Shown here one piece after another: positions 1,163 through 36,411 of a stretch of 64,000 nt of DNA. Within the stretch, counting starts at the first letter, position 1, and each line of letters opens with the position of its first letter. This stretch comes from Pseudorhizobium banfieldiae (lineage in GTDB: Bacteria > Pseudomonadota > Alphaproteobacteria > Rhizobiales > Rhizobiaceae), in assembly GCF_000967425.1 (NCBI RefSeq), contig NZ_FO082820.1, forward strand, positions 310,001 through 374,000, read 5' to 3'. Made by a program: the position numbers and the translations under genes. Below the pieces are notes generated by a model that did no database searches, was not told the DNA's origin, and saw only the letters and a list, made by a program, of their open reading frames with translations.

Positions 1163-1918
1163 ATGTCCACCGCCGAAGACTTCCAGGCTATCATTTACGC
1201 GATCAACCTCGACCGCTCCCGCGAGCGCTGGGAAGAACTCTCTCGCGAGGCTGCTGATCTGGGCCTGGCTATCCATAGGGTCGCGGCAGTCGATGGCAGT
1301 TTGTTCGAAGCAGGAGATTGGGCGGACGTGAACCAAGCTGCCTTCATGCGCAATAACGGGCGCCATATGATCCCGGGCGAGTATGGGTGCTATCGCAGCC
1401 ACATGAAGGCGCTCTCGACCTTTCTTGAGGCCGGGCTGCCACACGCAATCATCGTTGAAGACGACATCAGGCTTTCATCGGATCTGCCTGAGCGTGCGGC
1501 GGCGGCACTCGCTGCGGTTCCGGGAGCGGATGTGATCAAACTGTTCAATCACCGAATGGTCGGGTTCAGGAGCTATGCAACGACCGCTCATGGCGACCGG
1601 ATCGGTCGTGCTATTCACGGTCCTATGGGGTCGGCGGCCTGCTACGCGGTCACGCGCCCCGGCGCGGCGAAACTGGTGGAGCGGATGAAGGTGATGGAGT
1701 ACCCGTTCGACATTGCCCTCGAGCGGGGCTGGGCGATAGGCGCGGAAGTCTTGACCGTGGACGAGGATGTCGTCATCTCCAAGCGGTCGGCCAGCACCAT
1801 CGCCAGCCGAAGCGGCTACAAAGAGAGAAAGTTCGTCTGGTGGAAGCGCCTCCCGACACATTGGCAGCGGGCGAAGGACTATCTCCAACGGATACTATAT
1901 GCGCTCAAGGGGGTCTGA
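1163..1918 (+). CDS. Glycosyltransferase family 25 (LPS biosynthesis type)
   Basis: 251 aa. The opening YAINLDRSRERWEELSREA and the following VDG, GEYGCYRSHMKAL and IIVEDDI blocks are the hallmark of GT25 enzymes of the Lex2B/LpsA type, which transfer a hexose from a nucleotide sugar to lipooligosaccharide or other surface glycans in the cytoplasm. EDD is the DxD-like metal/nucleotide-sugar motif near residue 100. The C-terminus is basic (KRSASTIASRSGYKERK) and may contact membrane. The stop is only 4 bases before the O-antigen ligase start, so the two genes are very likely cotranscribed and work on the same surface polysaccharide. Confidence 0.85.
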   Translation: MSTAEDFQAIIYAINLDRSRERWEELSREAADLGLAIHRVAAVDGSLFEAGDWADVNQAAFMRNNGRHMIPGEYGCYRSHMKALSTFLEAGLPHAIIVEDDIRLSSDLPERAAAALAAVPGADVIKLFNHRMVGFRSYATTAHGDRIGRAIHGPMGSAACYAVTRPGAAKLVERMKVMEYPFDIALERGWAIGAEVLTVDEDVVISKRSASTIASRSGYKERKFVWWKRLPTHWQRAKDYLQRILYALKGV

Positions 1919-1922
1919 ACTG

Positions 1923-3236
1923 ATGCCGGCCGTTGCGGTCTCTCGGTCTGCTCCCTTTCTTATTCCCCTGTTGTGGGTGTTGATGGCGTCGGCGATGCTG
2001 GTGGAGAGCGACGCCTACCGCTATGCGACGTTGGCGCTCGTCGCCCTTTCCATGATCCGTTTTCGGGACTACGTTCGCCTCGTCTCGCGTGACTGGCTTG
2101 CCTGGTTCTGTTGGCTCTGGGCTGCCTACGCTGCTATCCGCTTCGTGATCGGCATGACGGTTTATGATGCGCGCGGCACCTCCGAATGGCTGTACATATT
2201 CCCGCTCTTCTTTCCGGCACTTGGGGTGACGCTGTACAAGACACGTCAGTACGTTTTTCCAGCCGTGATGGTTTTAATCGCCGCCGGAGTTGTAGGATTG
2301 CTGGCTAGCATCGACTGGGCCGCCCTGAGGAGCGGCGAGCGCGTATTCCCTCTTTTTCACAATAATCCCATCCATGCGGCGATCGGATGCGGTATGCTTC
2401 TGGTTACAAGCATTTGCTTGATGCTCTACGTCGTGGAAACGCGGCGCTATGACGGGTGGCGTCTCGGCGTGATCCTCGGAATGGGGTTCCTGACGGTGTT
2501 GTTGAGCGGGGTCGGGATTCTGGGCGCCCAGTCGAAAGGGGTATGGCTCGCCCTCGGCCCCGTGGCGGGCTTCATGTCCCTGGCGGTCCTCGCGTTCTAC
2601 GGTAAACGTCTGGCATTGGCCGTCCTTGCAGTGCTGCTGGTCGCAATGATGGGCATCATCGTTGCGCAGGAGGATGCCAGACGCGTGGCTGGTCCGACAA
2701 TAGAAGCCACCGGCGCGTTGTTCAGCTTTGGAATGGAACATGTCGATCCCCGAGACGCCATGCGCCGCGCCGTAGAGAATCCCGACACTCCCCAATCCAT
2801 GCGGGACCGTCTGATGTTGTGGACCAACGCACTGGATACGGTAGAGTCATCTCCGTGGTTCGGCTGGGGGAATCTCTGGCAGGATCGATGGCGGCAGGGT
2901 ACCTATCAAGATAACAACCACCAGTTGCTCCACAACGGCTATCTCGAGATCCTGGTGCGGCACGGCCTTCTTGGGGCATTGGTACTCGCTACCTTCATCC
3001 TGGTGTCCGCGTATAGGATATACGAAGCAAGGCGGCAGGGGGTCATTTCAGCCAGCCTGATGCTCTATCTCTACAGCCTGAGCCTGTTTTTCTTCATCAC
3101 CATCGCAACGAACTCGAACAACCGCCTGGCGCTGGGCGAGAGCTACTTCCTGCTTGCGGGGGCTGCCGTCTTTGCGATCTCGCTCGCGATGAGGATCAGC
3201 CAGGCGAAGCCTGCCGATGTCGCGCAAGCTGATTAG
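1923..3236 (+). CDS. O-antigen ligase / Wzy_C-family membrane protein
   Basis: About 437 aa with roughly ten to twelve hydrophobic segments. The Wzy_C region is recognisable: RLMLWTNALDTVESSPWF, then GWGNLWQD, and the HNGYLEILVRHGLLG block whose His is typical of WaaL/O-antigen polymerase-ligase proteins. Such proteins join or polymerise undecaprenyl-linked glycans at the periplasmic face of the inner membrane. I place the start at the ATG at 1923 because a longer frame would overlap the end of the glycosyltransferase in an out-of-frame, poor-quality stretch. Ligase versus polymerase cannot be decided from sequence. Confidence 0.8.
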   Translation: MPAVAVSRSAPFLIPLLWVLMASAMLVESDAYRYATLALVALSMIRFRDYVRLVSRDWLAWFCWLWAAYAAIRFVIGMTVYDARGTSEWLYIFPLFFPALGVTLYKTRQYVFPAVMVLIAAGVVGLLASIDWAALRSGERVFPLFHNNPIHAAIGCGMLLVTSICLMLYVVETRRYDGWRLGVILGMGFLTVLLSGVGILGAQSKGVWLALGPVAGFMSLAVLAFYGKRLALAVLAVLLVAMMGIIVAQEDARRVAGPTIEATGALFSFGMEHVDPRDAMRRAVENPDTPQSMRDRLMLWTNALDTVESSPWFGWGNLWQDRWRQGTYQDNNHQLLHNGYLEILVRHGLLGALVLATFILVSAYRIYEARRQGVISASLMLYLYSLSLFFFITIATNSNNRLALGESYFLLAGAAVFAISLAMRISQAKPADVAQAD

Positions 3237-3311
3237 TCGCGTTTCGCCGAACTCGTTGCCTGATTTTCGTCCTGTTCAACGCCCTGAACTCTCTGCTGAG
3301 CCTTAAGAGTC

Positions 3312-3986
3312 TCAGGATTGCTTCGCCACAGGTTGTGTCACATAGGCGATGACCGCATCCGAAATCATCCGTTTATGTCGATCATAGAGGGCGGGCTCCG
3401 ATAGGTCCCGGTGAAAGATCGTGCCGAAGGTGTAGCGGTTGGACACGCGGAAGAAGCAGAAGGCGCTGATCAGCATGTGCAGGTCCACCGCATCGACATC
3501 GCGATGGAAGACGCCTTCTCTGCGCCCCCTCTCCAGGATTTCGCCGATCGTCCTGACGATCGAGAGGTTGAGTTCGCCGATCTCGGACGATCGCTTCATG
3601 TGGTTCGCGTGGTGGATATTCTCGATACTGACCAACCGGACGAAGTCGGGATTGTTCTCGTCATGGTCGAAGGTGCTGGCAACCAGGGTCCGCAGCGCCT
3701 CGACCGGAGGCATGTCGGCAAGTTCAAGATCGGCTTCGAGCGAGCGGATCTTGCGGTAGGCCTTTTCGAGCACCGCGAGGTAGAGACCCTCCTTGCTGCC
3801 GAAATAGTAGTAGATCATGCGTTTCGAGGTGCGGGTCTTTTCGGCGATCGCGTCGACGCGGCCGCCGGATAGGCCGTAGGCCGAAAACTCCTCCGTCGCG
3901 ACGTTCAGGATGTCGTCCCGTGTTTTTTCCGGATCGTTCTTCCGGCTCTCTCGCTCAGCAGGCCTGCGCACGTCCACTTCCGTCAC
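3312..3986 (-). CDS. TetR-family regulator of the quinate/shikimate unit
   Basis: 224 aa. An N-terminal helix-turn-helix lies at about residues 20-70 (TRDDILNVATEEFSAYG, then TSKRMIYYYFGSKEGLYLAVL), the standard TetR DNA-binding domain. A variable ligand domain follows, with IENIHHANHMKRSSEIGELN suggesting a TetR_C-type pocket. It is divergent from the dehydrogenase-quiC pair, with 170 bases between the starts. That position, and the two operator-like sequences in the promoters at 4066 and 7007, suggest it represses both transcription units until a pathway ligand binds. The ligand is not known. Confidence 0.88.
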   Translation of the reverse strand: MTEVDVRRPAERESRKNDPEKTRDDILNVATEEFSAYGLSGGRVDAIAEKTRTSKRMIYYYFGSKEGLYLAVLEKAYRKIRSLEADLELADMPPVEALRTLVASTFDHDENNPDFVRLVSIENIHHANHMKRSSEIGELNLSIVRTIGEILERGRREGVFHRDVDAVDLHMLISAFCFFRVSNRYTFGTIFHRDLSEPALYDRHKRMISDAVIAYVTQPVAKQS

Positions 3987-4059
3987 TTCCTCCGGGCATC
4001 CTCCGGCCCTCCGCGACGACTCATATTGGCCTTGTAGTCAGGTTTCAATGGAGGATCGA

Positions 4060-4088
4060 TTGACACGAACTAGTTAGTACACTATGGC
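4060..4088 (+). promoter_or_regulatory. Promoter with operator-like spacer, upstream of dehydrogenase-quiC
   Basis: A -35 box TTGACA (4060-4065) and a -10-like TATGGC (4083-4088) are separated by exactly 17 bases. The spacer holds CGAACTAGTTAGTACA (4066-4081), with the palindromic core AACTAGTT. A 12-of-16 match occurs in the spacer of a second promoter at 7007-7022, ahead of the TRAP genes. The repeat of the same motif in the same promoter position is consistent with repression by the divergent TetR protein. Promoter elements are seen; the regulator assignment is inferred. Confidence 0.55.
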
Positions 4089-4156
4089 ATTGACCAAGAA
4101 CAGCGTTTTGGGAGGAGCGCCGTCGGCCCGGCTGATCCTAATCATCCATCGCCGCG

Positions 4157-5068
4157 GTGAATGCAGAAATGGCAGCCGTCGAGCATTCCTCATTTCGTGC
4201 CGGGCTTATCGGCAAGGGCATCCAGGCTTCCCTGACGCCTGCGATGCACATGGAAGAGGGCCGCGCGCAGGGCCTGGATTATCACTACGTTCTGCTCGAT
4301 CTGGACCGGATCGATGGCGGCGACAAGCACCTGCCGAACCTCATCTTGGATGCGGAAGCGAAAGGCTTCGGTGGCCTGAACATTACCCACCCCTGCAAGC
4401 AGGATGTCATCCCCTTCCTTGATACCCTCTCCGATGAGGCCGTGGCGCTTGGCGCCGTCAACACGGTCGTCCTCCGCGATGGCCGGCGGCACGGGCACAA
4501 CACCGACTGGTGGGGGTTCGCCGAGAGCTTCCGGCGAGGTCTGCCTGGAGCGAATCTCCGGTCGGTCGTGCAGTTGGGGGCCGGAGGTGCGGGCGCCGCA
4601 ACGGCCTTTGCCATCCTTCGATCAGGTGCCGAGAGGCTGACGATCTTCGATCAGGATGCGGCCCGCTCCTCGGCTCTCGCCGAAAGCATGAAGCAGCATT
4701 TTCCAGACAGGGCAGTCGTAGCAGGCCGCGACCTCTCCCGGGAGATGGCATCGGCGACGGGCCTGATCCATGCAACGCCGACCGGCATGGCGAAGTATCC
4801 GGGCCTGCCGCTGCCGGCCGATCTGCTGGGCCCATCTTTGTGGGTGGCGGAAATCGTCTACTTCCCCTTGAGGACGGAGTTGCTGATCGAGGCGGAAAAG
4901 GTTGGATGCCGCATCCTGGATGGCGGCGGCATGGCAGTCTTTCAGGCAGTTGGCGCATTCAAACTCTTTACCGGCCTGGAACCGGATGCGGACCGCATGC
5001 TCCGACACTTCGCTGAGATGACGCGGGGGCCGCTCCAGCCCGTCCGCGCAGCGGGAGGCGGCCGATGA
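4157..5068 (+). CDS. Shikimate/quinate dehydrogenase (AroE family, catabolic)
   Basis: 303 aa. N-terminal substrate domain: GLIGKGIQASLTPAMH (the usual SxS pair of AroE appears as ASLTP), GGLNITHPCKQ with the catalytic Lys at residue 81, and GHNTDWWGF with the catalytic Asp at 117. C-terminal Rossmann domain: QLGAGGAGAATAFA (GxGGxG). It oxidises shikimate and/or quinate to the 3-dehydro product with NAD(P)+. The neighbouring QuiC, AroQ and TRAP genes point to catabolism rather than aromatic amino acid synthesis. Its stop overlaps the quiC start (ATGA), so the two are translationally coupled. An in-frame ATG at 4169 is an alternative start. Confidence 0.87.
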   Translation: MNAEMAAVEHSSFRAGLIGKGIQASLTPAMHMEEGRAQGLDYHYVLLDLDRIDGGDKHLPNLILDAEAKGFGGLNITHPCKQDVIPFLDTLSDEAVALGAVNTVVLRDGRRHGHNTDWWGFAESFRRGLPGANLRSVVQLGAGGAGAATAFAILRSGAERLTIFDQDAARSSALAESMKQHFPDRAVVAGRDLSREMASATGLIHATPTGMAKYPGLPLPADLLGPSLWVAEIVYFPLRTELLIEAEKVGCRILDGGGMAVFQAVGAFKLFTGLEPDADRMLRHFAEMTRGPLQPVRAAGGGR

Positions 5069-6954
5069 AGACATCGATCGCAACGGTATCGATCAGCGGT
5101 GAACTCCCGGAAAAGCTGGAGGCGATTGCCAAGGCAGGTTTTCACGGAGTCGAGATCTTCGAGAACGACTTTCTCGCCTTCGACGGCAGCCCACGCGATG
5201 TAGGCCGAATGGTCCGGGACGCCGGGCTGGAGATCACGCTTTTCCAGCCATTCCGCGATTTCGAGGGGATGCCCGAGCCGCACCGCACACGGACCTTCGA
5301 CCGTGCCGAACGCAAGTTCGATGTCATGCAGGAACTGGGGACAGATCTCGTCCTGGTCTGCTCGAACGTCTCGCCGGTCTCGCTCGGTGGGATTGATCGC
5401 GCCGCAGCGGACTTCAGCGAACTGGGCGAAAGAGCAGCGAAGCGGGGTCTGCGGGTCGGTTATGAAGCCCTCGCATGGGGTCGCCATATCTCCGATCATC
5501 GTGACGCATGGGAAATCGTCCGCCGCGCCGATCATCCCAATGTCGGGCTTATCCTCGACAGTTTCCATTCACTGGCGCGCAAGATCGACATCGGTTCGAT
5601 CCGATCTGTCCCGAAGGACAAGATCTTCATCGTTCAGCTCGCGGACGCGCCGCTCATCGACATGGACCTTCTCTACTGGAGTAGGCATTTCCGCAACATG
5701 CCGGGCGAGGGGGATTTGCCAGTCACCGACTTCGTCGCCGCAATCGCGGAAACCGGCTACGACGGCTATTTCTCGCTTGAGATCTTCAATGATCAGTTTC
5801 GTGGCGGCTCGCCCAAGGCGATCGCGGCCGATGGTCATCGATCGCTGATCTATCTCGGTGATCAGGTGCGGAGAAGATCGGGGGCGGCCACGCTTTCGGT
5901 TGCGCCGATGCCCGAGCGCGCCGTGGTGAAGGGCGTGGCTTTCGTCGAGTTCTCTGTCGGCGAGGCGGATGCCGGCCAGTTGATCGCGATGCTGCATGCG
6001 CTCGGTTTCCGCAAGACCGCCGTTCACAGGACGAAGAAGGTCAGCGTCTATCAGCAGGGACAGATCCGCATCCTCGTCAATCGAGAATCCGTCGGCTTTG
6101 CCAGCGCGGCCTATGCCGTTCACGGAACATCAGCCTATGCCATGGCCCTGGAAGTAGAGGATGCATCTGCAGCGTTGGCGCGCGCGGTAGCGTTGGGCGC
6201 GGAACCGTTTCACCAGCCGGTGGGACCCGGTGAACTGGAGATCCCGGCGATCCGCGGGGTCGGAGGCGGGTTGGTCTATCTGATCGATGGCACGAGCAGC
6301 CTAGGCAAAATATGGGAGGTGGACTTCGTCCCCACATCCGATGAGGGCCAGCCGTTCCCGGCGAACCTGATTGCCGTAGACCACGTGGCGCAGACAGTAG
6401 CCTATGAAGAGATGCTGACCTGGCTTCTCTTCTATACCTCCATCTTCGAGGCCGCCAAGTCGCCCATGGTGGACATCATCGATCCGGCGGGGGTGGTGCG
6501 GAGCCAGGTCGTTGAAAATCGCGACGGTTTCTTGCGGATCACGATGAACGGAGCCGAGAACCGGAGAACACTGGCGGGCCACTTCATAGCAGAGAAATTC
6601 GGCTCCGGTATCCAGCATCTTGCCTTCAGAAGCACCGATATCTTCAAGACCGCCGAGGCGTTGCGGGCAAACGGCTTCCATACCTTGCCGATCTCGCCAA
6701 ACTACTACGACGACGTCGAAGCACGTTTCGGTCTTGAGCCGCAATTGACCGAGCGCATGAAGGCCGAGAACATCCTCTACGATCGGGATGAGCACGGGGA
6801 ATATTTCCAGCTCTACAGTGGGACCTTCAGCGAAGGCTTTTTCTTCGAAATCGTCGAAAGGCGAGGCTATCGAGGTTATGGGGCACCGAACGCGATATTC
6901 CGTATAGCGGCGTTGAGGAAACAGATCCGGCCTGAAGGAGTGCCGGCGGCATGA
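5065..6954 (+). CDS. quiC: 3-dehydroshikimate dehydratase, QuiC type
   Basis: 629 aa, the length of the two-domain QuiC1 enzymes that convert 3-dehydroshikimate to protocatechuate. Residues 1-280 form a xylose-isomerase-like TIM barrel carrying the expected metal ligands in GYEALAWGRH, ILDSFHSLA, FIVQLADAP and FSLEIFND. Residues about 290-620 form a VOC/4-hydroxyphenylpyruvate dioxygenase-like module (AVDHVAQTV; GSGIQHLAFRSTDIF; FFFEIVERRGYRGYGAPN). The HPPD-like half is a known part of this family and need not be a dioxygenase. The gene is coupled to the upstream dehydrogenase. Protocatechuate would then enter the beta-ketoadipate pathway, which is not encoded in this window. Confidence 0.9.
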   Translation: MKTSIATVSISGELPEKLEAIAKAGFHGVEIFENDFLAFDGSPRDVGRMVRDAGLEITLFQPFRDFEGMPEPHRTRTFDRAERKFDVMQELGTDLVLVCSNVSPVSLGGIDRAAADFSELGERAAKRGLRVGYEALAWGRHISDHRDAWEIVRRADHPNVGLILDSFHSLARKIDIGSIRSVPKDKIFIVQLADAPLIDMDLLYWSRHFRNMPGEGDLPVTDFVAAIAETGYDGYFSLEIFNDQFRGGSPKAIAADGHRSLIYLGDQVRRRSGAATLSVAPMPERAVVKGVAFVEFSVGEADAGQLIAMLHALGFRKTAVHRTKKVSVYQQGQIRILVNRESVGFASAAYAVHGTSAYAMALEVEDASAALARAVALGAEPFHQPVGPGELEIPAIRGVGGGLVYLIDGTSSLGKIWEVDFVPTSDEGQPFPANLIAVDHVAQTVAYEEMLTWLLFYTSIFEAAKSPMVDIIDPAGVVRSQVVENRDGFLRITMNGAENRRTLAGHFIAEKFGSGIQHLAFRSTDIFKTAEALRANGFHTLPISPNYYDDVEARFGLEPQLTERMKAENILYDRDEHGEYFQLYSGTFSEGFFFEIVERRGYRGYGAPNAIFRIAALRKQIRPEGVPAA

Positions 6955-24333: not shown

Positions 24334-24350
24334 TGGCTGGGGAACCTGGA
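24334..24350. repeat. Left attachment core (17-bp direct repeat)
   Basis: TGGCTGGGGAACCTGGA, identical to 36152-36168. Its reverse complement ends in CCCCAGCCA and looks like the acceptor/T-stem end of a tRNA (similar to tRNA-Gln 3' ends), but no full tRNA gene is present here. Confidence 0.75.
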
Positions 24351-24461: not shown

Positions 24462-24956
24462 CTAAAGGCAGTCATCGGAAAACCTCGAGAACGCGACCTC
24501 TGCGCCCTCGCCGGTTTTCGGCGAAAGGAACTCGTAACTGCGATTAGGCGTGGTGATTGTCCAATCCCTGGCGACCTCTTCACCGAGAGCCTGTGTCCCG
24601 TCGAGCACGATCACTTTGGCGTGCATGGCGAAGAAATCGGCGAAATCCCTTTCTTCCATGGTTTTGGAGGCGACAACGCGAGTTTCGCTTTCCTTTGTTT
24701 TGATTGTGACAGGTCCCGAGTAATCTCTAGTAAGGATAGTCATTGTTGGAGATTTGTAATCACAACTGAATGCCAGGCATGCGTTGGAGGACCCATTTAG
24801 TTCGGGTTCGAATTCCCAGTCCAGGTTATCGCAGGAGTATAGCACTCTGCTCTCGGCAACGTAGTGCCAATAATCCTGAGGGCGACTTTGAGCGCTCGAT
24901 TGGATAGCTGACAGCGTTAACACGAGGGCTGCAATTCGGTATCTGCGGTGTTTCAT
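24462..24956 (-). CDS. Secreted hypothetical protein (164 aa)
   Basis: A basic start and hydrophobic core (MKHRRYRIAALVLTLSAIQ) followed by SSAQS give a good Sec signal peptide, with cleavage near residue 23. The mature part has several cysteines (YSCDNLDW, NACLAFSCDY, SDDCL) that could form disulfides in the periplasm, and a beta-rich character (TMTILTRDYSGPVTIKT). I do not recognise a family. It is the leftmost gene of the element and reads toward the attachment site. Its link to the other cargo genes is unknown. Confidence 0.65.
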   Translation of the reverse strand: MKHRRYRIAALVLTLSAIQSSAQSRPQDYWHYVAESRVLYSCDNLDWEFEPELNGSSNACLAFSCDYKSPTMTILTRDYSGPVTIKTKESETRVVASKTMEERDFADFFAMHAKVIVLDGTQALGEEVARDWTITTPNRSYEFLSPKTGEGAEVAFSRFSDDCL

Positions 24957-25046: not shown

Positions 25047-26168
25047 TCAAGGCCCAACCAGGAGCCAGCGGCTTGCCGGAATGCCCTTGACGAAAGCCCG
25101 CCCGGTTAACGACGTACCGTCGGCCAAACGGGCGTCAATGCGATATTCGATCAGGAAGTCTCCCTCGAAATAGACGTCATAGGCTTCTACCAAACGCGCC
25201 TGGCCTGCGGGAACAGGACCAAGGCGTTTGTTTCCAAGCGTCGTTTCGGTCAGTTCGCCGCCGAGGAAGGTTGAACCACGGCTAGTTACGCTGGCGGCGA
25301 CAAAGTCGCTTCCGCTGCTATTGGCGAGGTAGAGCGGGATGTTGCCGTGGACCCATTGCTTGCCGAAATGCAGGGCAACCGGGAAAGGACAGGCGGAAAG
25401 CGCGATCAGGTCCGGCCATTCATAGGCTTTGCGATAGCCCACCTCATAGGAAACATAGGTGAAATCCGGCTGGAATTCCTCGCCATCTCCGATGGCGTCT
25501 GTGGTGCCGATGAAGAGAAGCGCCTTGTGCTGGCGACATAATTCCAGAGCCTTCGCCAATTGCGGGCGCTCCGTCGAACCTACCGTTTCCTGCTCCATGA
25601 ACTCGGCCAGAACATTGTCGGAAATGTTTGCTTTCTGGATTCCGTCCCGCTGCTTTGCCAGAAGAGTGTCTGCCTCCGGTCCCTGCGGCCCGGCGCGAAG
25701 GTAGAACACGACGGGCGTTCTTCCTGACGCGGTCTCGCGAAGTTGGTCGGCCAGTTTCGGGGCTGGCAGGGTAATGACCTCGACCCCATCCTGCGAAGCG
25801 GGGGAAAACTCCTGTCCGGCGACGGCTTCGCTCGTGGTGACCAGAAGTACGGCCCGTTCATGAATTGCCGCTTTGCGGGCAGCGCCATAGGCAGGGCGTC
25901 GGGGTGAACCAATCTCGATCTCGGTGAACGTTGCCGCGACGACGCCGCGCCGGGCTGCCAGCCAAGGGTTGACGGCTTCGATCTGTGACAGGATTTCCGG
26001 GGGAAACGTGTCCGCTTGGCCGGTGTCGAACGCACTGAACAGGGGAGCGGGAATTCCGTTCTCGTCTTCGGCCCAATGCGTCGTCACGGGATAATCTTTG
26101 GCGGCAGTTCCGCCGTTCTGCCGAAAATAGACGATGACGTTCATGGGGCCCGCTTCGTGATTTCTCAT
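25047..26168 (-). CDS. Hypothetical protein with a catalytically dead serine-recombinase-like domain
   Basis: 373 aa. Around residues 150-225 the sequence VVFYLRAGPQGPEADTLL, then DNVLAEFMEQETVGSTERPQ and LAKALELCRQHKALLFIG follows the serine recombinase (resolvase) N-terminal fold: the beta-strand with YxR, the LExQ helix, the D/E-rich turn and the ALxxAK helix. The catalytic Ser (RxS) is Gly here (RAG), and the later DR pair is absent. The flanking 150-residue regions are not recognised. There is no DNA-binding C-terminus. It may use the fold for dimerisation or regulation. The start could be the ATG at 26144 instead. Confidence 0.6.
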   Translation of the reverse strand: MRNHEAGPMNVIVYFRQNGGTAAKDYPVTTHWAEDENGIPAPLFSAFDTGQADTFPPEILSQIEAVNPWLAARRGVVAATFTEIEIGSPRRPAYGAARKAAIHERAVLLVTTSEAVAGQEFSPASQDGVEVITLPAPKLADQLRETASGRTPVVFYLRAGPQGPEADTLLAKQRDGIQKANISDNVLAEFMEQETVGSTERPQLAKALELCRQHKALLFIGTTDAIGDGEEFQPDFTYVSYEVGYRKAYEWPDLIALSACPFPVALHFGKQWVHGNIPLYLANSSGSDFVAASVTSRGSTFLGGELTETTLGNKRLGPVPAGQARLVEAYDVYFEGDFLIEYRIDARLADGTSLTGRAFVKGIPASRWLLVGP

Positions 26169-26218: not shown

Positions 26219-26794
26219 TTACAAATTGCGGCTTTCCGCGAAGAAATCACTCCTGTTACCGGGATTGCCACAGACTGGCGCGTCGGTTGCCGATGGCGCG
26301 AACCCGCCCGCCAAGCTGGATTTCCAGCTTTTCAAGGTGCTTTTTTCACGCGGATTGTCACGCTGGGCCTTGGCGAAGCCGAAAATGAGAAGGTGTAGTT
26401 TGGTGTCGATGACGGGGCGAGTGCCGTTCCCCGCAATCTGGCGAATGGCCTGATGAACCGCGGGCGCATCACCGCCGCGAACCAGCTTCTTCATCGCATT
26501 GATGCGAACGAGGGCGCTGGCGACCTCGACATAGCCTTCCTTCAATGCGTTGGCGTACCGCGTCAACGCTCTCTCGTAGTCCTTGATCTGGCCGATGACG
26601 GTAGGCAAGCCATCTCCGTTGGCTCGTAATGCGATATTGGTGAAGTGCTTGGCCTCGCAGAAAACGACCTCCGGCCCGGTCTTAGTGTTCCGGATGACGG
26701 CTGCGTCAAGTCGGTCCTGCTGCTGCGTGGCCGCTTTTTTTGTCCCCGTCCGGGTCAGCGCGATCTCCACGTCGATAATTGTCGGATCGCCCAC
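26219..26794 (-). pseudogene. Decayed nuclease-like gene (5' truncated, probably frameshifted)
   Basis: 191 codons from a GTG. DAAVIRNTKTGPEVVFCEAKHF gives D-(x)n-E-x-K, the PD-(D/E)XK pattern, with QIKDYERALTRY after it; a nuclease catalytic half is likely. The usual N-terminal half is missing. At an A6 tract (26341-26346, plus strand T6) the C-terminus turns into unlikely sequence (APSATDAPVCGNPGN), while another frame continues as HLEKLEIQLGGRVRAIGN. One extra A would join them. So both ends look broken. A sequencing error in the homopolymer cannot be ruled out for the frameshift. Confidence 0.55.
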
Positions 26795-26981
26795 AAGGAG
26801 CGGATGAAGCCCAGACTTTTCAGCCCCGGCGAAGGGCGTTGCCGCTGCCCGTCGATCAGCGGCACATAAGGGTGGGAGCGATGAAGAGGTGTACCTGTTC
26901 CTTTGTGCCTACGATGCTGCAGTGAGGTAGATTAACGCCCAGGTTGTAGTTATGTTCTGTCTCGGTGGGAGAGGAAACTTG

Positions 26982-29900
26982 ATGGCACCCCAACTTGAAA
27001 CACACGACGACATTGAGCGCGGCTTCCAGGACATCCCCGGCAACAAGAAAACGGAAGCGGAACAGACAGCGTTTCTCATGGATTTGGGGTGGCACAAGGG
27101 CTCAAATTGGGATGACCTTCTAAAATCGAAACGCATCCTCATCATCTCCGAAGCTGGTGCTGGCAAAACCTATGAGTGCCGAGCGCAGCAGCGGGCCCTG
27201 TGGGCATCAGGTGAGCCTGCTTTTTATGTTGAGTTGGCCGACCTTGCACGTAGCAATCTGCGAGATCTTCTCTCGCATGAAGAGGAAGTCCGCTTCAACG
27301 CCTGGCATGCTTCGCAATCTGACGTCGCAACGTTTTTTCTTGATTCCATCGATGAATTGAAACTCAGCCTCGGTTCCTTCGAGCAGGCGCTGAAACGCTT
27401 GGCGAAGGCTGTTGAGGGACAGCTCGGGCGGATCCGGGTGGTTATCACATCTCGCCCTGTTCCCATCGACGAACAGTTATTCCGACAGCTCTTGCCAGTG
27501 CCCGATGAGTCTGAGGAGGCTCCGACCGAGAAGGATTTCGCCGATATCGCCATGGCGCGTCGAGCACAGAAGTCGTCCGAAGAGAGGCTTGAGCGAGATT
27601 GGCGGAATGTTGCATTGCTGCCCCTGTCCAATGCCCAGATTGTACAGATGGCACTCAAAGAAGGCGTAGATGAACCTGATGCCCTGCTCGCCGATATCCG
27701 GCAGCGAAATGCCGAGGAATTCGTGCGCCGCCCGCAAGACCTGATTGAGCTATGTGCCGATTGGCGAGTTCATCGCCGCATTCGTTCACATCTTGATCAA
27801 GTGGCGAGCAACATCGCCGTGAAATTGAAGCCAAGGAGTGATCGGAAGGAGCGAGCGGCTTTGTCTGCGGACAGGGCATTGCAAGGTGCCTGCCGATTGG
27901 CTCTAGCTGCCACTCTCAGTCGAAAGCTGACCTTGCGCCATAGTGCCGAAGCTGACCGCGAAGGCGATCCGGCAGAAGCGCCGCTTGATCCTGAGCTGAT
28001 TTTACATGATTGGACCTCAGACGAACGCACGACGCTTCTGGAGCGCCCACTTTTTGGCTTTGCGTCCTATGGCCGTGTGCGCTTCCACCACCGCTCGGTG
28101 ATAGAGTATCTCGCTTCTGAGCATCTTCTCGCGCTAAGGGAGCGAGGGGTGTCTTCCCGATCGATCAAGCGCATCCTTTTTACGACCACTGCACAAGGTG
28201 GCACTGTGCTTAAGCCATCGCTCCGGCCTGTCTCCGCTTGGATGGCGCTACGAGATGATGCGATTTTCGAAGAAGTGCTAAAGCGAGAACCAGACGTTCT
28301 GTTGAATTTCGGCGACCCTGAGACGCTTTCTCCTTTGAAGCGCCAGCGCGCCCTCCGCGCCTATGTCGAGCGCCACGGTAAGGGCGGTTGGCGAGGACTG
28401 CGCGTGCCGGCTATACAGCTTCATCGCTTCGCAGACGCCTCCCTAGATTCTGAGGTCAAGCGGCTTTGGAACCTCGGGGTCGAAAATCCGGAGATCCGCG
28501 AAGTGCTACTGGACCTGATCGGTCTGGGGAAGATGAACGAATGTGCCGACATTGCCCATAGCGTCGCAATGGATGGTACTGCGCCTGATAACGAGCGGAT
28601 CGATGCATTGGAGGCGCTGATAAGTTTGCCTGATCCGCGTCTTACCAAAGTCGGCGATAGCTTGGTCAGCGACCCGTCACTTTGGTCCGACCGCCTAGCA
28701 CGCGCTGCGCTCATGCGCCTGTTTCCCGCCCATCTCTCTATAGAACAACTCGGCGAGGTACTTGCGCGGATTTCGGAGAAAAAACGTTCTGTAGGTGATA
28801 TCTCGTGGCAGTTCCCGCGCCTTATCGAGCATGTGAGCCTACCGCCATATGAACTCGGCGCCCTGCGTGAAAGAGTGACCGAACTGGCACTTGAAGGCGT
28901 CGTCTGGGACCAAAAGAAATGGCCAAATCTCGCCAGCAAACGGCAGTATCTCTTGCCGGCACTAGCCTCAATCTGTCTGCGTCAGCTACGGAACGATGTC
29001 ACGACACCGGAGCTATTCAGATCCATCGCGGTTGCATTACGACTCGCAGAACGTGAGTATGATCACACTGAGCCCGCTAAGCAGTTAGCAGCCGCAATTG
29101 CCTCTGCCCCGCCGGCCATCCGGCGCTCCATTTTCGAGGCAGACGACAAGCTTCTGCAAGCTTATGATTCAAGAAGTGATCCTTTCGACCGGTATGCCCG
29201 CTTGGCGCTTTATGGTGCAGTTGTCGTTCTAGGTGCTGCAGATGCGGAGTGGGTCCTCGAAGCCCTCGCGGACCGCACTCGCTCTGCCGACGATCGCGCG
29301 ATGATGCTTGAGGCGGCTATCGGTACCCGCAACGACAACGTTGAATGGGCCGACCATCTTTCAGCTCTGAAGCTTCACGTTTCGGATCGTCCGGAGCTAA
29401 TTGAGCGTCTTGAGAAACTTTCTAACCCGAGCCTCGCAAGCCAAAAAAATAGACGGTGGGAACGCGAGCAGGCTAAGCGGCGGGAGCATGACGAGCGCCG
29501 AGATATGAAAGCCCATGCCAGTTGGGTGATGTTTTGGAGAGAGATCGTCAATAATCCTGACGAGGTCTTCGCGTCCGATCGTTCCGATAACACCGCCTGG
29601 GGTCTCTGGCGGGCAATGGAACAGAGCGGCAATGAAAGTCGAGCCTCTGGGTGGAACCGACGGTTCATCGAAAGGCATTTCAACAAGACAGTGGCTGACC
29701 GGCTGCGCCTTGCTGTGATGGCATTCTGGCGTAAGGATCGCCCAACATTACGGAGCGAACGGCCGGAGCAAGAGAAGGATACCTTTCTGATTCGATGGCA
29801 GCTGGGTTTGGCGGGAATTACCGCAGAAGCCGAAGATCCTAATTGGGCCGAAAACCTTAGTCAGGATGACGCCGAGTTGGCGCTAAGATACGTGCCCATT

Positions 29901-31373
29901 GAGCTAAACGGTTTTCCAACTTGGCTCGAAGGTTTCGCCGCTGTGCATCCGGCGGCCGTCGATGCCGTACTTGGAACGGAGTTGACGATCGAGCTTAGCG
30001 ATCCGGCTACCGCCCATTCCGGTATGTTGCAAGGTATCCGGCATGCGCCTTTGTCCGTCGCACAACTGTTCGTGCCGCGTCTGCTTGCTTGGCTGGATCA
30101 AGGGGAATGGCGCGTAGGGCAAGCAGCTTCCGAGTCGGTTCGTGCGAACCGGCTTGAGCAAGTGCTAAGAATTCTGGTTCAGCATGGCGACGCTGATATC
30201 ATTGCTCACATCCATGCACTTGCGAAGGGCGAAATAGCAAGTGGTGCGCATGATAGCGTGGACGGTATCTGGTTGCCGGTTCTTATGCGTCTAAGCCCGG
30301 CAGACGGGATCGATGCGCTTGCTAAAATCATCGAGGCTCAGTCGCCGGCGAAGTTCGGCCCAGCAATAGAGTGGTTCGGATCACTCTTTGGCAATCCACA
30401 TGGTGATCGTGAGACCTATCTGTCCGCATCCACCTTCACCCCAGAATTGCTACTACGGCTCGCACGTCTTGCTTATCAGTATGTCCGCCCGTCTGACGAT
30501 CTAAAACGAGAAGGCAGTTTCACGCCCAATGCGCGTGATCACGCGGAACGCGGCCGAAGTAATATTGTCAACGCGCTCTTGTCGACGACAGGGCCTGACA
30601 GCTGGGCAATGAAACTCCGATTGGCTAACGATCCACTCTTCGCCGGCTTCAAGGAGCGGGCACTAGCAATGGCCCGCGAGCGTGCTGCAGAGGAGGCGGA
30701 TGCCGCTGCCTTCACCGAGACCGACATAGTGGCACTGGACCGTTATGGCGAACTGCCGCCACTGACGCGCGACGAAATGTTTATCCTGATGGTCGATCGG
30801 CTGGACGACATCGACGATACTCTGTTGCGCGACGATTCTCCCCGAGCAGCTTGGGCGCTCATCAAAGATGAGAAAATCATGCGCCAGCAGATCGCTCGCG
30901 AACTGCGCTCTGGTGCCAAAGGTGCCTACACAGTTGACCAGGAAGCGGTGACGGCGGACGAAAAAGAAACCGATATCCGCTTGCGCTCTACTGGCTCGGA
31001 ACATGAGGCTATCATCGAACTGAAGATCGGCGAAAAAGGCCGCTCAGCAGCCGACCTCAAGGCAACGATAAAAGGCCAGCTTGTTGCGAAGTACATGGCG
31101 GCGGAGAACAGCCGTGCCGGCTGTTTGCTCATCACCGTGAATTCCGCTCGAACCTGGCAGCACCCCGATAATGGTACGGCACTGAGTTTGGCTGGTCTTG
31201 TTGACATGTTGAATGCCGAGGCTGTTCGGATCGAGGAGGAAATGGGCGGCAGCCTGCGATTGCTTGTGCGAGGCCTGGATCTCCAGCCGCGCTTGTCGAC
31301 GGAACGTGCAAAGTCACGGAACCGTCAATGTAAGGATGCTTCAAAAGAGCCGCAAGAAGCGCTTGCTAAGTGA
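26982..31373 (+). CDS. Giant STAND (NACHT-like) NTPase with C-terminal PD-(D/E)XK-like nuclease
   Basis: 1463 aa. The start at 26982 is fixed by GGGAGAGG 7-8 bases upstream. The N-terminal NTPase has Walker A SEAGAGKT (56-63), Walker B FFLDSIDEL (118-126) and VVITSRP (sensor strand, about 160), as in NACHT/STAND proteins. About 1000 residues of helical, HEAT-like sequence follow and may sense a target. Near the C-terminus, D1331 and E1346-L-K1348 (ETDIRLRS...IIELKIGEK) with a following QLVAKYM helix fit a PD-(D/E)XK nuclease. I infer a signal-activated DNA-cutting defence protein that oligomerises on sensing phage. Known Avs proteins place the effector at the N-terminus; here it is at the C-terminus. 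It lies alone on the plus strand inside the element. Confidence 0.75.
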   Translation: MAPQLETHDDIERGFQDIPGNKKTEAEQTAFLMDLGWHKGSNWDDLLKSKRILIISEAGAGKTYECRAQQRALWASGEPAFYVELADLARSNLRDLLSHEEEVRFNAWHASQSDVATFFLDSIDELKLSLGSFEQALKRLAKAVEGQLGRIRVVITSRPVPIDEQLFRQLLPVPDESEEAPTEKDFADIAMARRAQKSSEERLERDWRNVALLPLSNAQIVQMALKEGVDEPDALLADIRQRNAEEFVRRPQDLIELCADWRVHRRIRSHLDQVASNIAVKLKPRSDRKERAALSADRALQGACRLALAATLSRKLTLRHSAEADREGDPAEAPLDPELILHDWTSDERTTLLERPLFGFASYGRVRFHHRSVIEYLASEHLLALRERGVSSRSIKRILFTTTAQGGTVLKPSLRPVSAWMALRDDAIFEEVLKREPDVLLNFGDPETLSPLKRQRALRAYVERHGKGGWRGLRVPAIQLHRFADASLDSEVKRLWNLGVENPEIREVLLDLIGLGKMNECADIAHSVAMDGTAPDNERIDALEALISLPDPRLTKVGDSLVSDPSLWSDRLARAALMRLFPAHLSIEQLGEVLARISEKKRSVGDISWQFPRLIEHVSLPPYELGALRERVTELALEGVVWDQKKWPNLASKRQYLLPALASICLRQLRNDVTTPELFRSIAVALRLAEREYDHTEPAKQLAAAIASAPPAIRRSIFEADDKLLQAYDSRSDPFDRYARLALYGAVVVLGAADAEWVLEALADRTRSADDRAMMLEAAIGTRNDNVEWADHLSALKLHVSDRPELIERLEKLSNPSLASQKNRRWEREQAKRREHDERRDMKAHASWVMFWREIVNNPDEVFASDRSDNTAWGLWRAMEQSGNESRASGWNRRFIERHFNKTVADRLRLAVMAFWRKDRPTLRSERPEQEKDTFLIRWQLGLAGITAEAEDPNWAENLSQDDAELALRYVPIELNGFPTWLEGFAAVHPAAVDAVLGTELTIELSDPATAHSGMLQGIRHAPLSVAQLFVPRLLAWLDQGEWRVGQAASESVRANRLEQVLRILVQHGDADIIAHIHALAKGEIASGAHDSVDGIWLPVLMRLSPADGIDALAKIIEAQSPAKFGPAIEWFGSLFGNPHGDRETYLSASTFTPELLLRLARLAYQYVRPSDDLKREGSFTPNARDHAERGRSNIVNALLSTTGPDSWAMKLRLANDPLFAGFKERALAMARERAAEEADAAAFTETDIVALDRYGELPPLTRDEMFILMVDRLDDIDDTLLRDDSPRAAWALIKDEKIMRQQIARELRSGAKGAYTVDQEAVTADEKETDIRLRSTGSEHEAIIELKIGEKGRSAADLKATIKGQLVAKYMAAENSRAGCLLITVNSARTWQHPDNGTALSLAGLVDMLNAEAVRIEEEMGGSLRLLVRGLDLQPRLSTERAKSRNRQCKDASKEPQEALAK

Positions 31374-31552: not shown

Positions 31553-32668
31553 CTAAGCGGCGGATCCCATCTCCCCGGCCGGCGTAACTGCCGGTCTTGC
31601 GAAACCATCATCATCGCAACCGGAGGCGTCTTCCAGATTTAGTTCGCCGTCGATCAGCCACCAGTCGCAATAGCGGCGATGAAGCGCCCGCGCATGGCCC
31701 GTCGTGCCGACATCCGCGAGGATTTCGATGAACCTTTCGAGCGTCACGGCCATGAACGGCAATCTGCCTTCCTGCGGTGATGCGAGGTGCCGGACGAAGC
31801 TGGTCGCGGCGTGCTGCGCAGGTGTGTTGAGGGCGGGAGCGATGAAGAGGTGCAGGCCCTCGTCATGCAGCCCGGTTTCGATCATCGTATGGGCGAGGCA
31901 CATCTGCCGGAAAAGCTGCTGTACCGGATTTGTCCGGAGGGTGGGGCTCGTGGCGTCGATGAAGAGGCCGGAGCCGGGAGCGATGTCGTCATAACGACCG
32001 GAGAAGCGCGGCAGGGCCTCTTGCCCGCTCTCGCTGTATTTCACTTCGATGGCGATGAAGCGCCGCTGCCCGGTCGGGCCAAATCCCCGAACGAGAATAT
32101 CGAAGGCCGTGCCGTCGCCGCTGAAACGAAGATCGCCACGACCGGGCGAGTGCTCGAACAGGATTTCGCTGATTTCCGTCATGAAGCCCGGCGCGAGTGC
32201 GTCGAAGACGGCGGTCGCCGTGGCGAGGTCGAGTTTCAGGGGGCCGAAGAGATTGAAGACCAGCGGCTGGGACGAAAGTAGGTTGGTCAGGAGGCGAACG
32301 TCGTCATAGGCCGCGCCTGCCTCGCGATAGATCATTTCGCGTTTGGCGAGCCGGGCGATAGCGGGATGAATGAAGTTCGCCCCGGTCATGCCTGCCGAGA
32401 CGGCGATGGAGGAGCCGAGGCGGCGGGTTTTGCCTTCCCTGCCGGGATGAACACCGATGGGCAGGTTGCGATCTTCGCGCCAGAGGGCTTGCAGAAGTCG
32501 GGCGGCGGCGCGGAAGCGATTATCGGTCGAAATGAAGGCCCGGTGCTGGCGCAGGATCGTTTCCGGGACGATGGGCAAAGCAGGGACGGAGCCCAGCCCG
32601 GAAGGGTCGAGGGTGGAGCCCGGCGAGGTGCGGGCGTCGGCGATGGGGGAATGTGCTGTCGATGTCAT
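31553..32668 (-). CDS. PGN_0703-type putative restriction endonuclease
   Basis: About 371 aa from the ATG at 32668 (an in-frame ATG at 32692 is possible). The conserved LTNLLSSQPLVFNLFGPL block, then TAFDILVRGF and FIAIEVKYSE, give the D-(x)n-ExK core of this PD-(D/E)XK family, with catalytic residues near 190-215. The family is annotated as a putative restriction endonuclease but has no adjacent methylase here, so its target and protection mechanism are unknown. The C-terminus (EDASGCDDDGFARPA) is acidic and probably disordered. It is convergent with the NTPase-nuclease gene. Confidence 0.78.
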   Translation of the reverse strand: MTSTAHSPIADARTSPGSTLDPSGLGSVPALPIVPETILRQHRAFISTDNRFRAAARLLQALWREDRNLPIGVHPGREGKTRRLGSSIAVSAGMTGANFIHPAIARLAKREMIYREAGAAYDDVRLLTNLLSSQPLVFNLFGPLKLDLATATAVFDALAPGFMTEISEILFEHSPGRGDLRFSGDGTAFDILVRGFGPTGQRRFIAIEVKYSESGQEALPRFSGRYDDIAPGSGLFIDATSPTLRTNPVQQLFRQMCLAHTMIETGLHDEGLHLFIAPALNTPAQHAATSFVRHLASPQEGRLPFMAVTLERFIEILADVGTTGHARALHRRYCDWWLIDGELNLEDASGCDDDGFARPAVTPAGEMGSAA

Positions 32669-32692
32669 CCAAGTGTTCCGGTTGGCGACCAC

Positions 32693-33204
32693 CGAAGTGC
32701 GGTCCCGGAGAGCTTCCCGGATGAGTGGGAGAAGTTAACAGAGCGGGAGGGGCGAAGTGAAGAGGCTGTGAGTGCGGATTGAAGAGAGAAGGGAAAGGGG
32801 GAAGAGGGAGGGGGGAAGAGGGAAGGGGGAAGGGGAAGAGGGAAGAGGGAAGAGGGAAGAGGGAAGAGGAGTGCAGGAGCGCACTCCGGGAGTTCTATCC
32901 CTATTTCCGGAGGGGGTTATAAGTGAATATCGCTGGCCGAACAGCATGTTCACAGGGGATCGAACGGCATCTGGCATAGCGTTTCAATTTGCGAGGGGGT
33001 GCGTAGGAGATTCGTCCCGGTAGCCGGAAGTCCGGAAATCTCTCCTGGAACGTCGGTCTTTTGAGGTGGTGCGCCCCGGCAACAGTGTCACATTCTTGGC
33101 TGCACTCGTGCATGAAATGCCGCCTGAAAACTATATCTGCAAGCAATCGCTTGCAGCGAAAACGCCCCAAGTGTGATTGCGATCAACATGGAGATATATG
33201 TCCG
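32693..33204. other. Long intergenic region with polypurine tract and hairpins
   Basis: About 510 bases between the divergent nuclease and Rep-like genes. It contains the polypurine run at 32778-32872 and a cluster of short palindromes at 33005-33050 (CCGGTAGCCGG, TCCGGAAGTCCGGA, with flanking AGGAGATT/AATCTCTCCT). The hairpins just before a Rep-like gene are a candidate replication origin. Sequence just before 33205 is more AT-rich and may hold the promoter. Confidence 0.45.
32778..32872 (+). repeat. Polypurine GGGAAGA-type repeat tract
   Basis: About 95 bases almost without pyrimidines on the plus strand, built from repeats of GGGAAGA and GGGGGAAG. The right part is a regular 7-base GGGAAGA tandem. 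Such mirror-like purine runs can form triplex (H-DNA) and are prone to slippage. No coding function is likely. Confidence 0.85.
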
Positions 33205-34155
33205 ATGGCATATCAAGATCGCTTGCAGGACTTCCCATCAGTTTCAAGTGCAGATTATGGCTCCGTTGTCGAGGTGGACTTCGATTCCTTCGAGCCGGGT
33301 TTCGCGATGGAACTCTATTGCAGCATGCCGGTCGCGACGGGGAAGCATGCCCGGCATCGTTGGACGTTGCTCGTGGACGAGCCGCGACGGCTCTACAACG
33401 CCATGTCCTTTCTGACTTGGCAGACCGGCCTTTATTTCAATGTGCATGTGACGCTAACCGCGTCCAGCCTCGGTTTTGCCGATTGCAAGGAGTTCCTGAC
33501 ACTTATGCCGCATTGGCATAAGGAATTGAACCGATGCCTCTTCGATGGTTCTCGCAAGGCAGCCCGGCCAGACCGGCAAGGCGGGCGAGCACACCGCGTC
33601 AGCCGCTGTGATTTGGTGAGGGTAGACCATCCGCATTATTGGATGGGGGTAGTGGAGTATGCCCGCGATCACGGGGTCCACATGCATGTCCTCTGCGTTG
33701 TCCCGAAATATGCGGTGAAGGCATTTGAGGAGAAGACCTGGTCATGGTGGCGATTGAAGTCGCCCGGTATCGCTCAAGCGAATGGAATTGCATTCCGAAC
33801 GAGGCATCCTTCGAGTGCCGAACGACGCTATGATCGGCAGGTCGAACTGTTCCGGTACATTATCAAAACTACAGGCGAAAACGTAGTTATGCGTGGTCAG
33901 AAAGACCCGATATATACGGCACGTGAGATTTTTAAGCCCTATCCCAATGACTGCACCCCAGTAAGAATCGAAGCCGGTCAACTCTGCGGGATCACGCATC
34001 GTCTCAACGAAGCTGAGCAGAAACGTGCCGGCTTTGTGTCCCGGTATGACGATGGCCGTTTCGAGGAAATCTATAGCGGTTGGGAGGTCGGAGAGTGCGA
34101 GCGGCGGGAGGCGCGGAAGCGACGAGACATGCTGCTGGAAACGCTCCAGATCTGA
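33205..34155 (+). CDS. HUH-type Rep/relaxase-like protein
   Basis: About 316 aa from the ATG at 33205; the longer frame from 33061 has an unlikely Cys-rich N-terminus. GVHMHVLCVVP contains the H-hydrophobic-H metal motif (H159, H161) flanked by hydrophobic residues, and RYIIKTT holds a Tyr-x-x-Lys pair (Y218, K221) at the spacing of single-Tyr rolling-circle Rep proteins. These enzymes nick DNA at an origin and join to the 5' end. An upstream helical part contains many Trp/His (LMPHWHKELNR). In this setting it may replicate an excised circular form of the element. A C-terminal basic helix (ERREARKRRDMLLETLQ) ends the protein. Confidence 0.55.
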   Translation: MAYQDRLQDFPSVSSADYGSVVEVDFDSFEPGFAMELYCSMPVATGKHARHRWTLLVDEPRRLYNAMSFLTWQTGLYFNVHVTLTASSLGFADCKEFLTLMPHWHKELNRCLFDGSRKAARPDRQGGRAHRVSRCDLVRVDHPHYWMGVVEYARDHGVHMHVLCVVPKYAVKAFEEKTWSWWRLKSPGIAQANGIAFRTRHPSSAERRYDRQVELFRYIIKTTGENVVMRGQKDPIYTAREIFKPYPNDCTPVRIEAGQLCGITHRLNEAEQKRAGFVSRYDDGRFEEIYSGWEVGECERREARKRRDMLLETLQI

Positions 34156-34315: not shown

Positions 34316-36035
34316 CTAGCGATGCAGATGGTGCAAATCCAGCGGTGGCCGTATCGTCTCGACGGACGCCGCCAACTGGCTCAAGGCCGATCCCTTCGTA
34401 TAGCGGGCGGTTTCGCCGGTCGTGCTGTGGCCGGTCAGGTGGTCGATAACCATCGTATTCACATCCGCTTGATGCATACACGTCGTCGCCGTGTGCCGGA
34501 GCGAATGGAAATCGAGATTCTTTCGGTAGACGCCGATCTGCTGGCGATAGCGGGTGAACCATTTCGAGAACGCGTGACCGAACTTGTTATCTGCGCCGCC
34601 CGGCTTGAGTTGCGGGAACAGCGCGTAAGAGCGCTTCCCGAAGCTCTCGGCATAACTGAGGAAACCCAGCCGGATCAATTCGGAGTGGATCGGCACCTTT
34701 CGCACCGCGTTTTTGTTCTTCAGTTGGCGGGGCGGGCGGTCGTTCAGGTCGAAATAGGCGATACCGTCTTCCTCGCGAATGTCATCGGTCTGGAGCTGGC
34801 AGATTTCTTCGAGCCGCATTCCGCTGAACAGGGTGATGAGCGGAACCCAGAACTTTTCGTCTTTGAACAATTGATCGCCTTTCATGCTGCGCTGGCGTTC
34901 GTTTGCGCAGCCGGTCCAGATGGGCGAGGAAAACAGGGCTTTGAGCTCGTCCGCATCCCACATATCGCGCTCGTCGCTGGCCCGCTTCGTATTCGTGAAC
35001 TTGAAGCCGGAGAAGATGTTGGTGGTCACTTCGCCGCCGGAAATCGCTTCCGACCAGAGCTTCGACAATGCCGAGAAATGCCGCTTGATCGTCTTTTGCG
35101 TCAGCAGGGGTGAGCGCTTTTCCTGCGGCAAGGCTTCGTATCGTGCAATGATCTCGGCGGGGCCAAGATCACGATAGATCGCCGCCTTGCCGTAGTCGAA
35201 TGGCATCTTTTCTGCTGTCTTGCGGAACGTCAGGGCATCCGCGCGGCTGTAGTCGGATAGAGGGCGGTCGCCACAGATGGCCATGAATAGTCGATAGGTG
35301 GCGTCCGCCTGACTGGCCATTTGCTGACGCCAGTCGCCACGCGCCACCTGCGTTTGAGCGAAATCTGGATAGACCTTCGAAAACATGGGCCCGGATTTCG
35401 TTGCTGATTCAGCTTTTGGCGATGGTGATACCGATGCAGGCGAAGCGGCGGCATCTTCGCGAAGGGCGCGGATCAGCAGCTTGTCTTTCGGCTCGAAATT
35501 GAAGTCGCCTTCGTACCGTGCCGCCAAGGCGTTCGCGAGCTCGATACCGGCGCGATGAACCGCCTCGGCGCATTGATGCCTTTCCTCGGTGTCGAGGTCA
35601 GCCCATTTCAAGCCTTGGAGCCTTGCGGCTTCGATGGCGGTCCAGCTTCCATCATGCAGCGCGTTCGCACCGAGCGCCTTGCGAACCTTGTCAGCGATTA
35701 TGCGCCAATATTCGGCCCGCGCGCCACGTTGTTTCTTCGGAGACAAATCGGCCGTTGGCTCGGTGGGACTTTTCCTTCTGGAGCACAAGGGCATAGAAAT
35801 GCTGCACGAGGTGGGCAAGTTGATCGTCTGAGAGCATCGGGTTTCGGCGAGCCAGTTCAAAGAGTTGTTCTGATTCCCGGTATAGCTGATCTGAAAGCAG
35901 CCGGGCAGTCTTCGCGTTGCAGGCTCCGAGACTGCGGACCAGTTCGCGTCTGCCGATGCGCTCTCGAAGCTCGACCGGCACGGCTCGCCGGAAATGATAG
36001 GTACCGCCACGGCGGACGACGTTCGATATTGCCAA
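34316..36035 (-). pseudogene. Tyrosine site-specific integrase, frameshifted
   Basis: The N-terminus (MAISNVVRRGGTYHFRRAVP) typical of DUF6538-type integrases runs in one frame from 36035, and the rest runs in another. The switch is at about 35765-35775, in KEKS/PTEPTADL; loss of one C in a short C run would explain it. The second frame has all catalytic residues: Arg in FSGMRLEEICQL, HSLRHT, GHS and the Tyr nucleophile in TARYTK near the end. Full length would be about 573 aa. It should recombine the 17-bp att repeats. A sequencing error or recoding is possible, but as read the gene is broken. Confidence 0.8.
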
Positions 36036-36066
36036 TGGTTCCGCCAGCCACCGAGACGGTGGTTTT

Positions 36067-36086
36067 TGTAGCAGCGGATTGTAGCA
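36067..36086 (+). repeat. Paired TGTAGCA arm-type repeats, right end
   Basis: TGTAGCA at 36067-36073 and 36080-36086 with spacer GCGGAT, the same layout as at the left end (24425-24444). They sit between the integrase start and the att core. Confidence 0.6.
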
Positions 36087-36149
36087 AAATGCCGTTTTCC
36101 GCCGACGTGGGCGTGAGGCATTCGAACGATTTCAGCGAGTTAAAAGGAA

Positions 36150-36290
36150 GATGGCTGGGGAACCTGGATTCTCACATGATTTCAATAGCTTATAAAAATA
36201 GCCATTGATTTCCCTATATTTTCCTGCCGCGGGCGACCATGGATGCCACCTTAGTGCCCCGGGTTTGGGCATCAGTCAACAGGGCTAACG
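36150..36290. repeat. Att-flanking sequence, copy 1 of 2
   Basis: About 140 bases starting in the att core and running right, roughly 80-85% similar by eye to 57711-57843. Shared blocks include ATTCTCACAT, ATTTCAA, GCGACC, and TTTGGGCATCAGTCAAC. On the minus strand a short frame (DAQTRGTKVASMVARGRK) has a counterpart in the other copy. Origin unknown; it may be the end of an older element or a duplicated target. Confidence 0.65.
36152..36168. repeat. Right attachment core (17-bp direct repeat)
   Basis: TGGCTGGGGAACCTGGA, identical to 24334-24350. At this end the next bases are TTC, extending the tRNA-like end (reverse complement GAATCCAGG then TTCCCCAGCCA). Confidence 0.75.
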
Positions 36291-36411
36291 ATCGGCAATA
36301 ATTTCCAATCCAGGGGCTCAGGGCTGAGGCTGGATCTCCGCGACCTTGGCTGCTGCTCTTGCTGACTGAAGTGATGACCATTAACGATGGCGACCCTGTG
36401 GGTGCGATGAG

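Follow-up and report, generated by a model that had tools for sequence, protein, structure and literature searches.

STAND proteins are described in the available sections of PMC12169576 as carrying the effector at the N terminus and the sensor at the C terminus, and the consulted sections of PMC13092281 and PMC10952713 likewise place effectors at the N terminus. In bNACHT25 and bNACHT32, MS2 infection leads to DNA degradation that is abolished by a D48A substitution in the DNase (PMC12169576, same sections). We analyzed a 64,000-nucleotide stretch of Pseudorhizobium banfieldiae DNA (contig NZ_FO082820.1, positions 310,001 to 374,000; hereafter the window) that encodes a 1463-residue protein with an N-terminal predicted NACHT-type NTPase and a C-terminal predicted nuclease (26982-31373, forward strand). 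This is a real bacterial immune protein of the already catalogued HyoA family; it is a new member of that family, and the discovery is a modest one.

The protein scores 1665 bits (cut-off, 1200) with the NCBIfam equivalog model ‘NACHT domain-containing antiphage protein HyoA’ (NF058534 antiphage_HyoA), and the match spans the whole model (positions 1-1430 of 1430; release 20.0, June 2026). On the model match alone, no difference from NF058534 HyoA was found. The initial annotation had proposed an undescribed defense protein, a status that is ruled out, as NCBIfam already names the family antiphage. The second NCBIfam match, to the related family NF058535 (antiphage_EruA), reaches 143 bits and thus falls far below its cut-off of 1000. 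We identified no Pfam match (E up to 0.1) and no model match in PADLOC 2.0.0 (E up to 0.01), whose database PADLOC-DB 2.0.0 includes Avs models. Among 5.8 billion proteins, from which the 7990 candidates sharing most words with the query were scored, 1172 relatives were found with E values no higher than 0.001. Leaving aside the query itself, identity to it ranges from 51 to 80% among the 120 relatives listed. Known-structure searches by sequence returned chance-level matches for the whole protein and the C-terminal profile and none for the N-terminal profile.

Literature searches (HyoA or EruA, since 2022, among others) found the name HyoA in none of the papers listed. The EruA of PMC12839154 is an E. 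coli regulator and unrelated, and the consulted sections of PMC12724215 deal with a different ATPase. Systems in the consulted sections of the DefensePredictor study (PMC13092281) carry names of the form DS-n, and these could include a relative of HyoA.

The coordinates and length given by the initial annotation are correct: the open reading frame (ORF) starting at ATG 26982 encodes 1463 amino acids followed by a stop codon. A mechanical ORF call yields a longer frame of 1473 amino acids from ATG 26952 (the NF058535 match covers residues 210-1385 of this version). We prefer ATG 26982 because a ribosome-site-like stretch, GGGAGAGG, read by eye, ends 7 bases before it and because the closest database copies among the matches listed are 1457-1476 amino acids long.

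Structural models point to an NTPase at the N terminus. AlphaFold2 models were built for residues 1-600 and 1140-1463 from alignments of the window protein with 73 of 75 relatives (L081 and L084, near copies of others, were left out). The model of residues 1-600 has the expected NTPase fold, with NLRP3 and NOD2 as the closest structures at middling scores; the top Foldseek rank for the NTPase is Avs4 (8dgf, E 2.2e-7, query TM 0.27). The NTPase and the region following it occupy approximately residues 8-506 (27003-28499, forward strand). Walker A (SEAGAGKT, residues 56-63, 27147-27170) and Walker B (FFLDSIDE, residues 118-125, 27333-27356) lie where the initial annotation had located them. Conservation was assessed in 76 alignment rows, comprising the members longer than 1300 amino acids, window included, of a cluster of 83. 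G59, G61 and K62 are kept in 75 of the 76 rows (the remaining row has a gap), as are D121 (one gap) and both D124 and E125 (one other residue). The protein thus contains a STAND/NACHT NTPase module with both Walker motifs, in line with the original reading. The Walker A strand lies at residues 51-55 of the N-terminal model and most NLR matches start at residues 6-8; as modeled, the N terminus is a NACHT-type NTPase fold with no domain ahead of it.

The C terminus is a predicted PD-(D/E)XK nuclease fold with invariant active-site residues (approximately residues 1297-1433, 30870-31280, forward strand). The nuclease motif seen by eye, from D1331 (30972-30974) to E1346-x-K1348 (31017-31025), is weak evidence alone because shuffling the protein 5000 times produced a like pattern (D-x10-18-[ED]xK-x10-25-Q-x3-5-Y) in 351 cases. 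Stronger evidence comes from the family: E1321, D1331, E1346, K1348, Q1366 and Y1371 are invariant in 76/76 rows, and the same six residues are kept in 57/57 rows of a second alignment picked from the 120 listed relatives. The AlphaFold2 model of residues 1140-1463 shows the expected nuclease fold, with restriction-type nucleases ranking first at middling scores, and places the D...(E/D)xK residues on neighboring strands of an alpha-beta core, as in the PD-(D/E)XK superfamily. Both folds therefore appear at the places anticipated from the motifs.

Between these domains lies a long, poorly conserved middle part that is probably the sensor (approximately residues 551-1150, 28632-30431, forward strand). 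Over residues 1-1450, this part holds the longest poorly conserved stretches, with mean column conservation of 0.27-0.33 in residues 551-850 and 1001-1150 and a better-kept block (0.44-0.51) in residues 851-1000. Conservation is 0.57-0.68 in residues 51-150 and 351-400 and 0.62 in residues 1301-1350; it is also low in residues 1-50 (0.31) and 151-200 (0.38). The initial annotation had described about 1000 residues of helical sequence, which the models bear out for approximately residues 426-600 and 1154-1310, both within the modeled parts.

The order of these domains sets the HyoA-family protein apart from Avs and bNACHT proteins. Avs4, of the Avs (AVAST) systems, appears to share its STAND NTPase fold; however, STAND proteins are described with the effector at the N terminus, whereas in the HyoA-family models no domain stands ahead of the NTPase and the nuclease comes last. 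bNACHT25 and bNACHT32 combine a NACHT domain with a PD-(D/E)XK DNase, as is predicted for the HyoA-family protein, but carry the DNase at the N terminus. We therefore ruled out filing the protein under Avs or bNACHT, as its putative effector is not N-terminal and PADLOC gave no match. A DNase effector is plausible in HyoA, because the DNases of bNACHT25 and bNACHT32 degrade DNA on MS2 infection.

A parallel is found in a genome of the same genus, where locus L107 (G017:C22:32000-39000, ORF 1474-5427) encodes an EruA-like protein whose score of 979 bits narrowly misses the EruA cut-off (1000). Its E, D, ExK and Q residues align with HyoA E1321, D1331, E1346-x-K1348 and Q1366; Y1371 is not kept. 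This protein has the same order as HyoA, with an N-terminal NTPase and a C-terminal D/ExK motif. Judging from the sequence of this one EruA-like protein, the HyoA and EruA families likely share their domain order.

HyoA relatives are patchily distributed. Besides the window's own genome, the HyoA cut-off is exceeded in 0 of 59 relatives and, across the class, in 8 of 384 genomes. Of 113 loci confirmed in a genome scan, 80 were retained. Judging by their record titles, they come from Alpha-, Beta- and Gammaproteobacteria, Desulfobacterales, Myxococcus, Luteolibacter and a Chlorobiaceae bin, and many of them are metagenome bins. Relatives also occur in 66 plasmid records, and in 17 of these a single place covers 80% or more of the query; many of the records are near copies of each other. 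On a Pseudomonas aeruginosa plasmid (pWTJH36, L105), a 41% relative is split in the annotation into two overlapping ORFs, with HEPN and Fic genes nearby. Two phage records contain a relative (26.8%), both of Acinetobacter phage MD-2021a. Among viral contigs, three stretches matched a pattern and none codes for a relative.

We identified no conserved partner gene: besides HyoA, no neighbor family occurs within the available flanks in more than 9 of the 81 loci (window included). By mechanical ORF call, a same-strand neighbor lies within 100 bp upstream in 10 and downstream in 8 of the 67 loci with both neighbors. As no neighbor family recurs widely and close same-strand neighbors are few, a one-gene system is most likely, which fits the single-gene system proposed at the outset. 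Single near neighbors include defense families (a type I specificity subunit, IetA, a 2TM effector, Cap15 and AbiU2); far neighbors match defense families too, and some near neighbors are metabolic. In a random choice of 144/288 near and 130/227 far neighbors, 297 and 185 PADLOC models were matched; these figures count models rather than neighbors with a match, the models overlap and the far set is no clean control, so we claim no defense-island enrichment.

The HyoA-family gene is cargo of an 11.8-kb integrase-bearing integrative element of the tRNA-Gln type. Two att-like repeats in the window (24334-24350 and 36152-36168, both forward) carry the same 17 bases, identical to the 3' end of tRNA-Gln(CTG). 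Elsewhere in the 4.58-Mb genome, allowing up to one mismatch, the sequence has one copy only (G000:C1:394190-394206). This third copy, at the 3' end of the intact tRNA-Gln(CTG), lies 48 kb rightward of the second, and all three copies share one orientation. The DNA at the left repeat and at the tRNA end is 82% identical (104/127 columns, repeat included). GC content is 57% in the element, 63% in the left flank and 59% in the right flank. Between the two repeats, the element encodes a 601-residue tyrosine recombinase (34316-36121, reverse; PF00589, E 1.7e-17; phrog_1, E 1.3e-29), and the HyoA gene has a convergent neighbor encoding a 379-residue PDDEXK_13 nuclease (31553-32692, reverse; PF20796, E 2.4e-100). 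The claim of an integrated element with another nuclease gene alongside thus stands.

A collinear element is present in Rhizobium cremeum (L005), with protein identities of 64% for the integrase, 83% for the PDDEXK_13 nuclease and 80% for HyoA. It lies between repeats at 7810 and 18764, and the second of these falls within an intact tRNA-Gln(CTG). Among the 80 loci, two repeat copies occur in L005 only, and one copy occurs in Rhizobium oryziradicis L042. A tRNA search of 14 of these loci found tRNA-Gln only in L005 and tRNA-Met in L010 and L020; the other 11 had none. An empty site was not demonstrable when the element-flanking genes were sought in 36 genomes, own included; their best copies elsewhere are 46% (left) and 68% (right) identical, both in G005 on different contigs.

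Taken together, the findings make this HyoA member, which travels as cargo of the tRNA-Gln-type element, most likely an antiphage STAND protein that acts as a one-gene system. At rest, the NACHT domain would hold ADP and the protein would be silent. A phage product may then bind the poorly conserved middle part, followed by ATP binding and assembly. The C-terminal nucleases would be brought together or released, and DNA would be cut. The phage would be stopped and probably the cell too, that is, by abortive infection. Both the role of the nuclease as effector and the abortive outcome are inferred from fold, conservation and analogy.

The combination of an NTPase with a C-terminal nuclease would also suit an NTP-dependent restriction enzyme resembling McrBC, which would recognize and cut incoming DNA directly, with no protein trigger and no cell killing. 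We regard this as improbable: the leading resemblance of the NTPase is to NLR NACHT domains, Pfam detects no DNA-recognition domain (the structure models cover residues 1-600 and 1140-1463), and the 81 loci showed no conserved partner, for instance a methylase. An equally doubtful proposal is that the protein serves to protect its own mobile element, not the host in general, from rival plasmids, phages or satellites. The gene's position as cargo and the plasmid-borne relatives would fit such a role, but no mobile-element gene family adjoins relatives in more than 9 of the 81 loci and the NCBI family name says antiphage. Guarding the element and guarding the host are compatible.

It is far less credible that the protein is a housekeeping STAND regulator whose nuclease fold is only structural. 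Metabolic genes do occur among the neighbors of relatives; the patchy presence, the invariance of the nuclease residues and the mobile location all argue against such a role. A one-gene antiphage protein thus remains our preferred interpretation.

The element’s other cargo consists of ORFs without firm assignments. These encode proteins of 164 residues (24462-24956, reverse; none in Pfam, PADLOC or NCBIfam, with phrog_7984 at E 0.098 only), 373 residues (25047-26168, reverse; PF00239 at E 2.5e-4 and 21.6 bits, below the cut-off of 23.3; 27% identical over 119 amino acids in L005) and 364 residues (33061-34155, forward; a weak replication-protein match, PF23343 at E 0.018, below cut-off; 34% identical over 263 amino acids in L005). 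The 373-residue protein is resolvase-like only at residues 154-217 and is not a normal recombinase. A further 191-residue ORF with a CEAK stretch (26219-26794, reverse) has no family match in Pfam, PADLOC, NCBIfam or PHROG and has related DNA in L005; it may encode a nuclease or a remnant. A 23-bp piece directly upstream of this ORF (26869-26891) is identical at 22 of 23 positions to 31830-31852 within the PDDEXK_13 gene. From sequence, the region 26219-26891 is perhaps a nuclease remnant.

In the window, the right end of the element lacks the tRNA, and an intergenic repeat known also in R. oryziradicis starts there. This repeat of about 150 bp is found at 36152-36306 and 57702-57847, and its first bases resemble the att core. 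It occurs twice in L042 (4241-4402 and 16079-16234), with the HyoA relative between the copies. With the intact tRNA-Gln(CTG) lying 48 kb to the right of the element, the island, a 60-kb stretch, may be composite or may have been rearranged.

The comparison shows that, in Rhizobium-like bacteria, a small tRNA-Gln element can carry the HyoA gene from place to place. We see an even chance that HyoA and EruA together represent a class of STAND immune receptors that are ‘reversed’, with a nuclease effector behind the sensor rather than ahead of the NTPase. If so, the signal would have to cross the entire sensor region on its way from the NTPase ring to the C-terminal nuclease, and such a route is undescribed for Avs or bNACHT in the sections of the accounts consulted. 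The HyoA-family protein offers a natural case for testing how a STAND receptor switches on an effector located behind the sensor, and the family comparison points out the residues to mutate.
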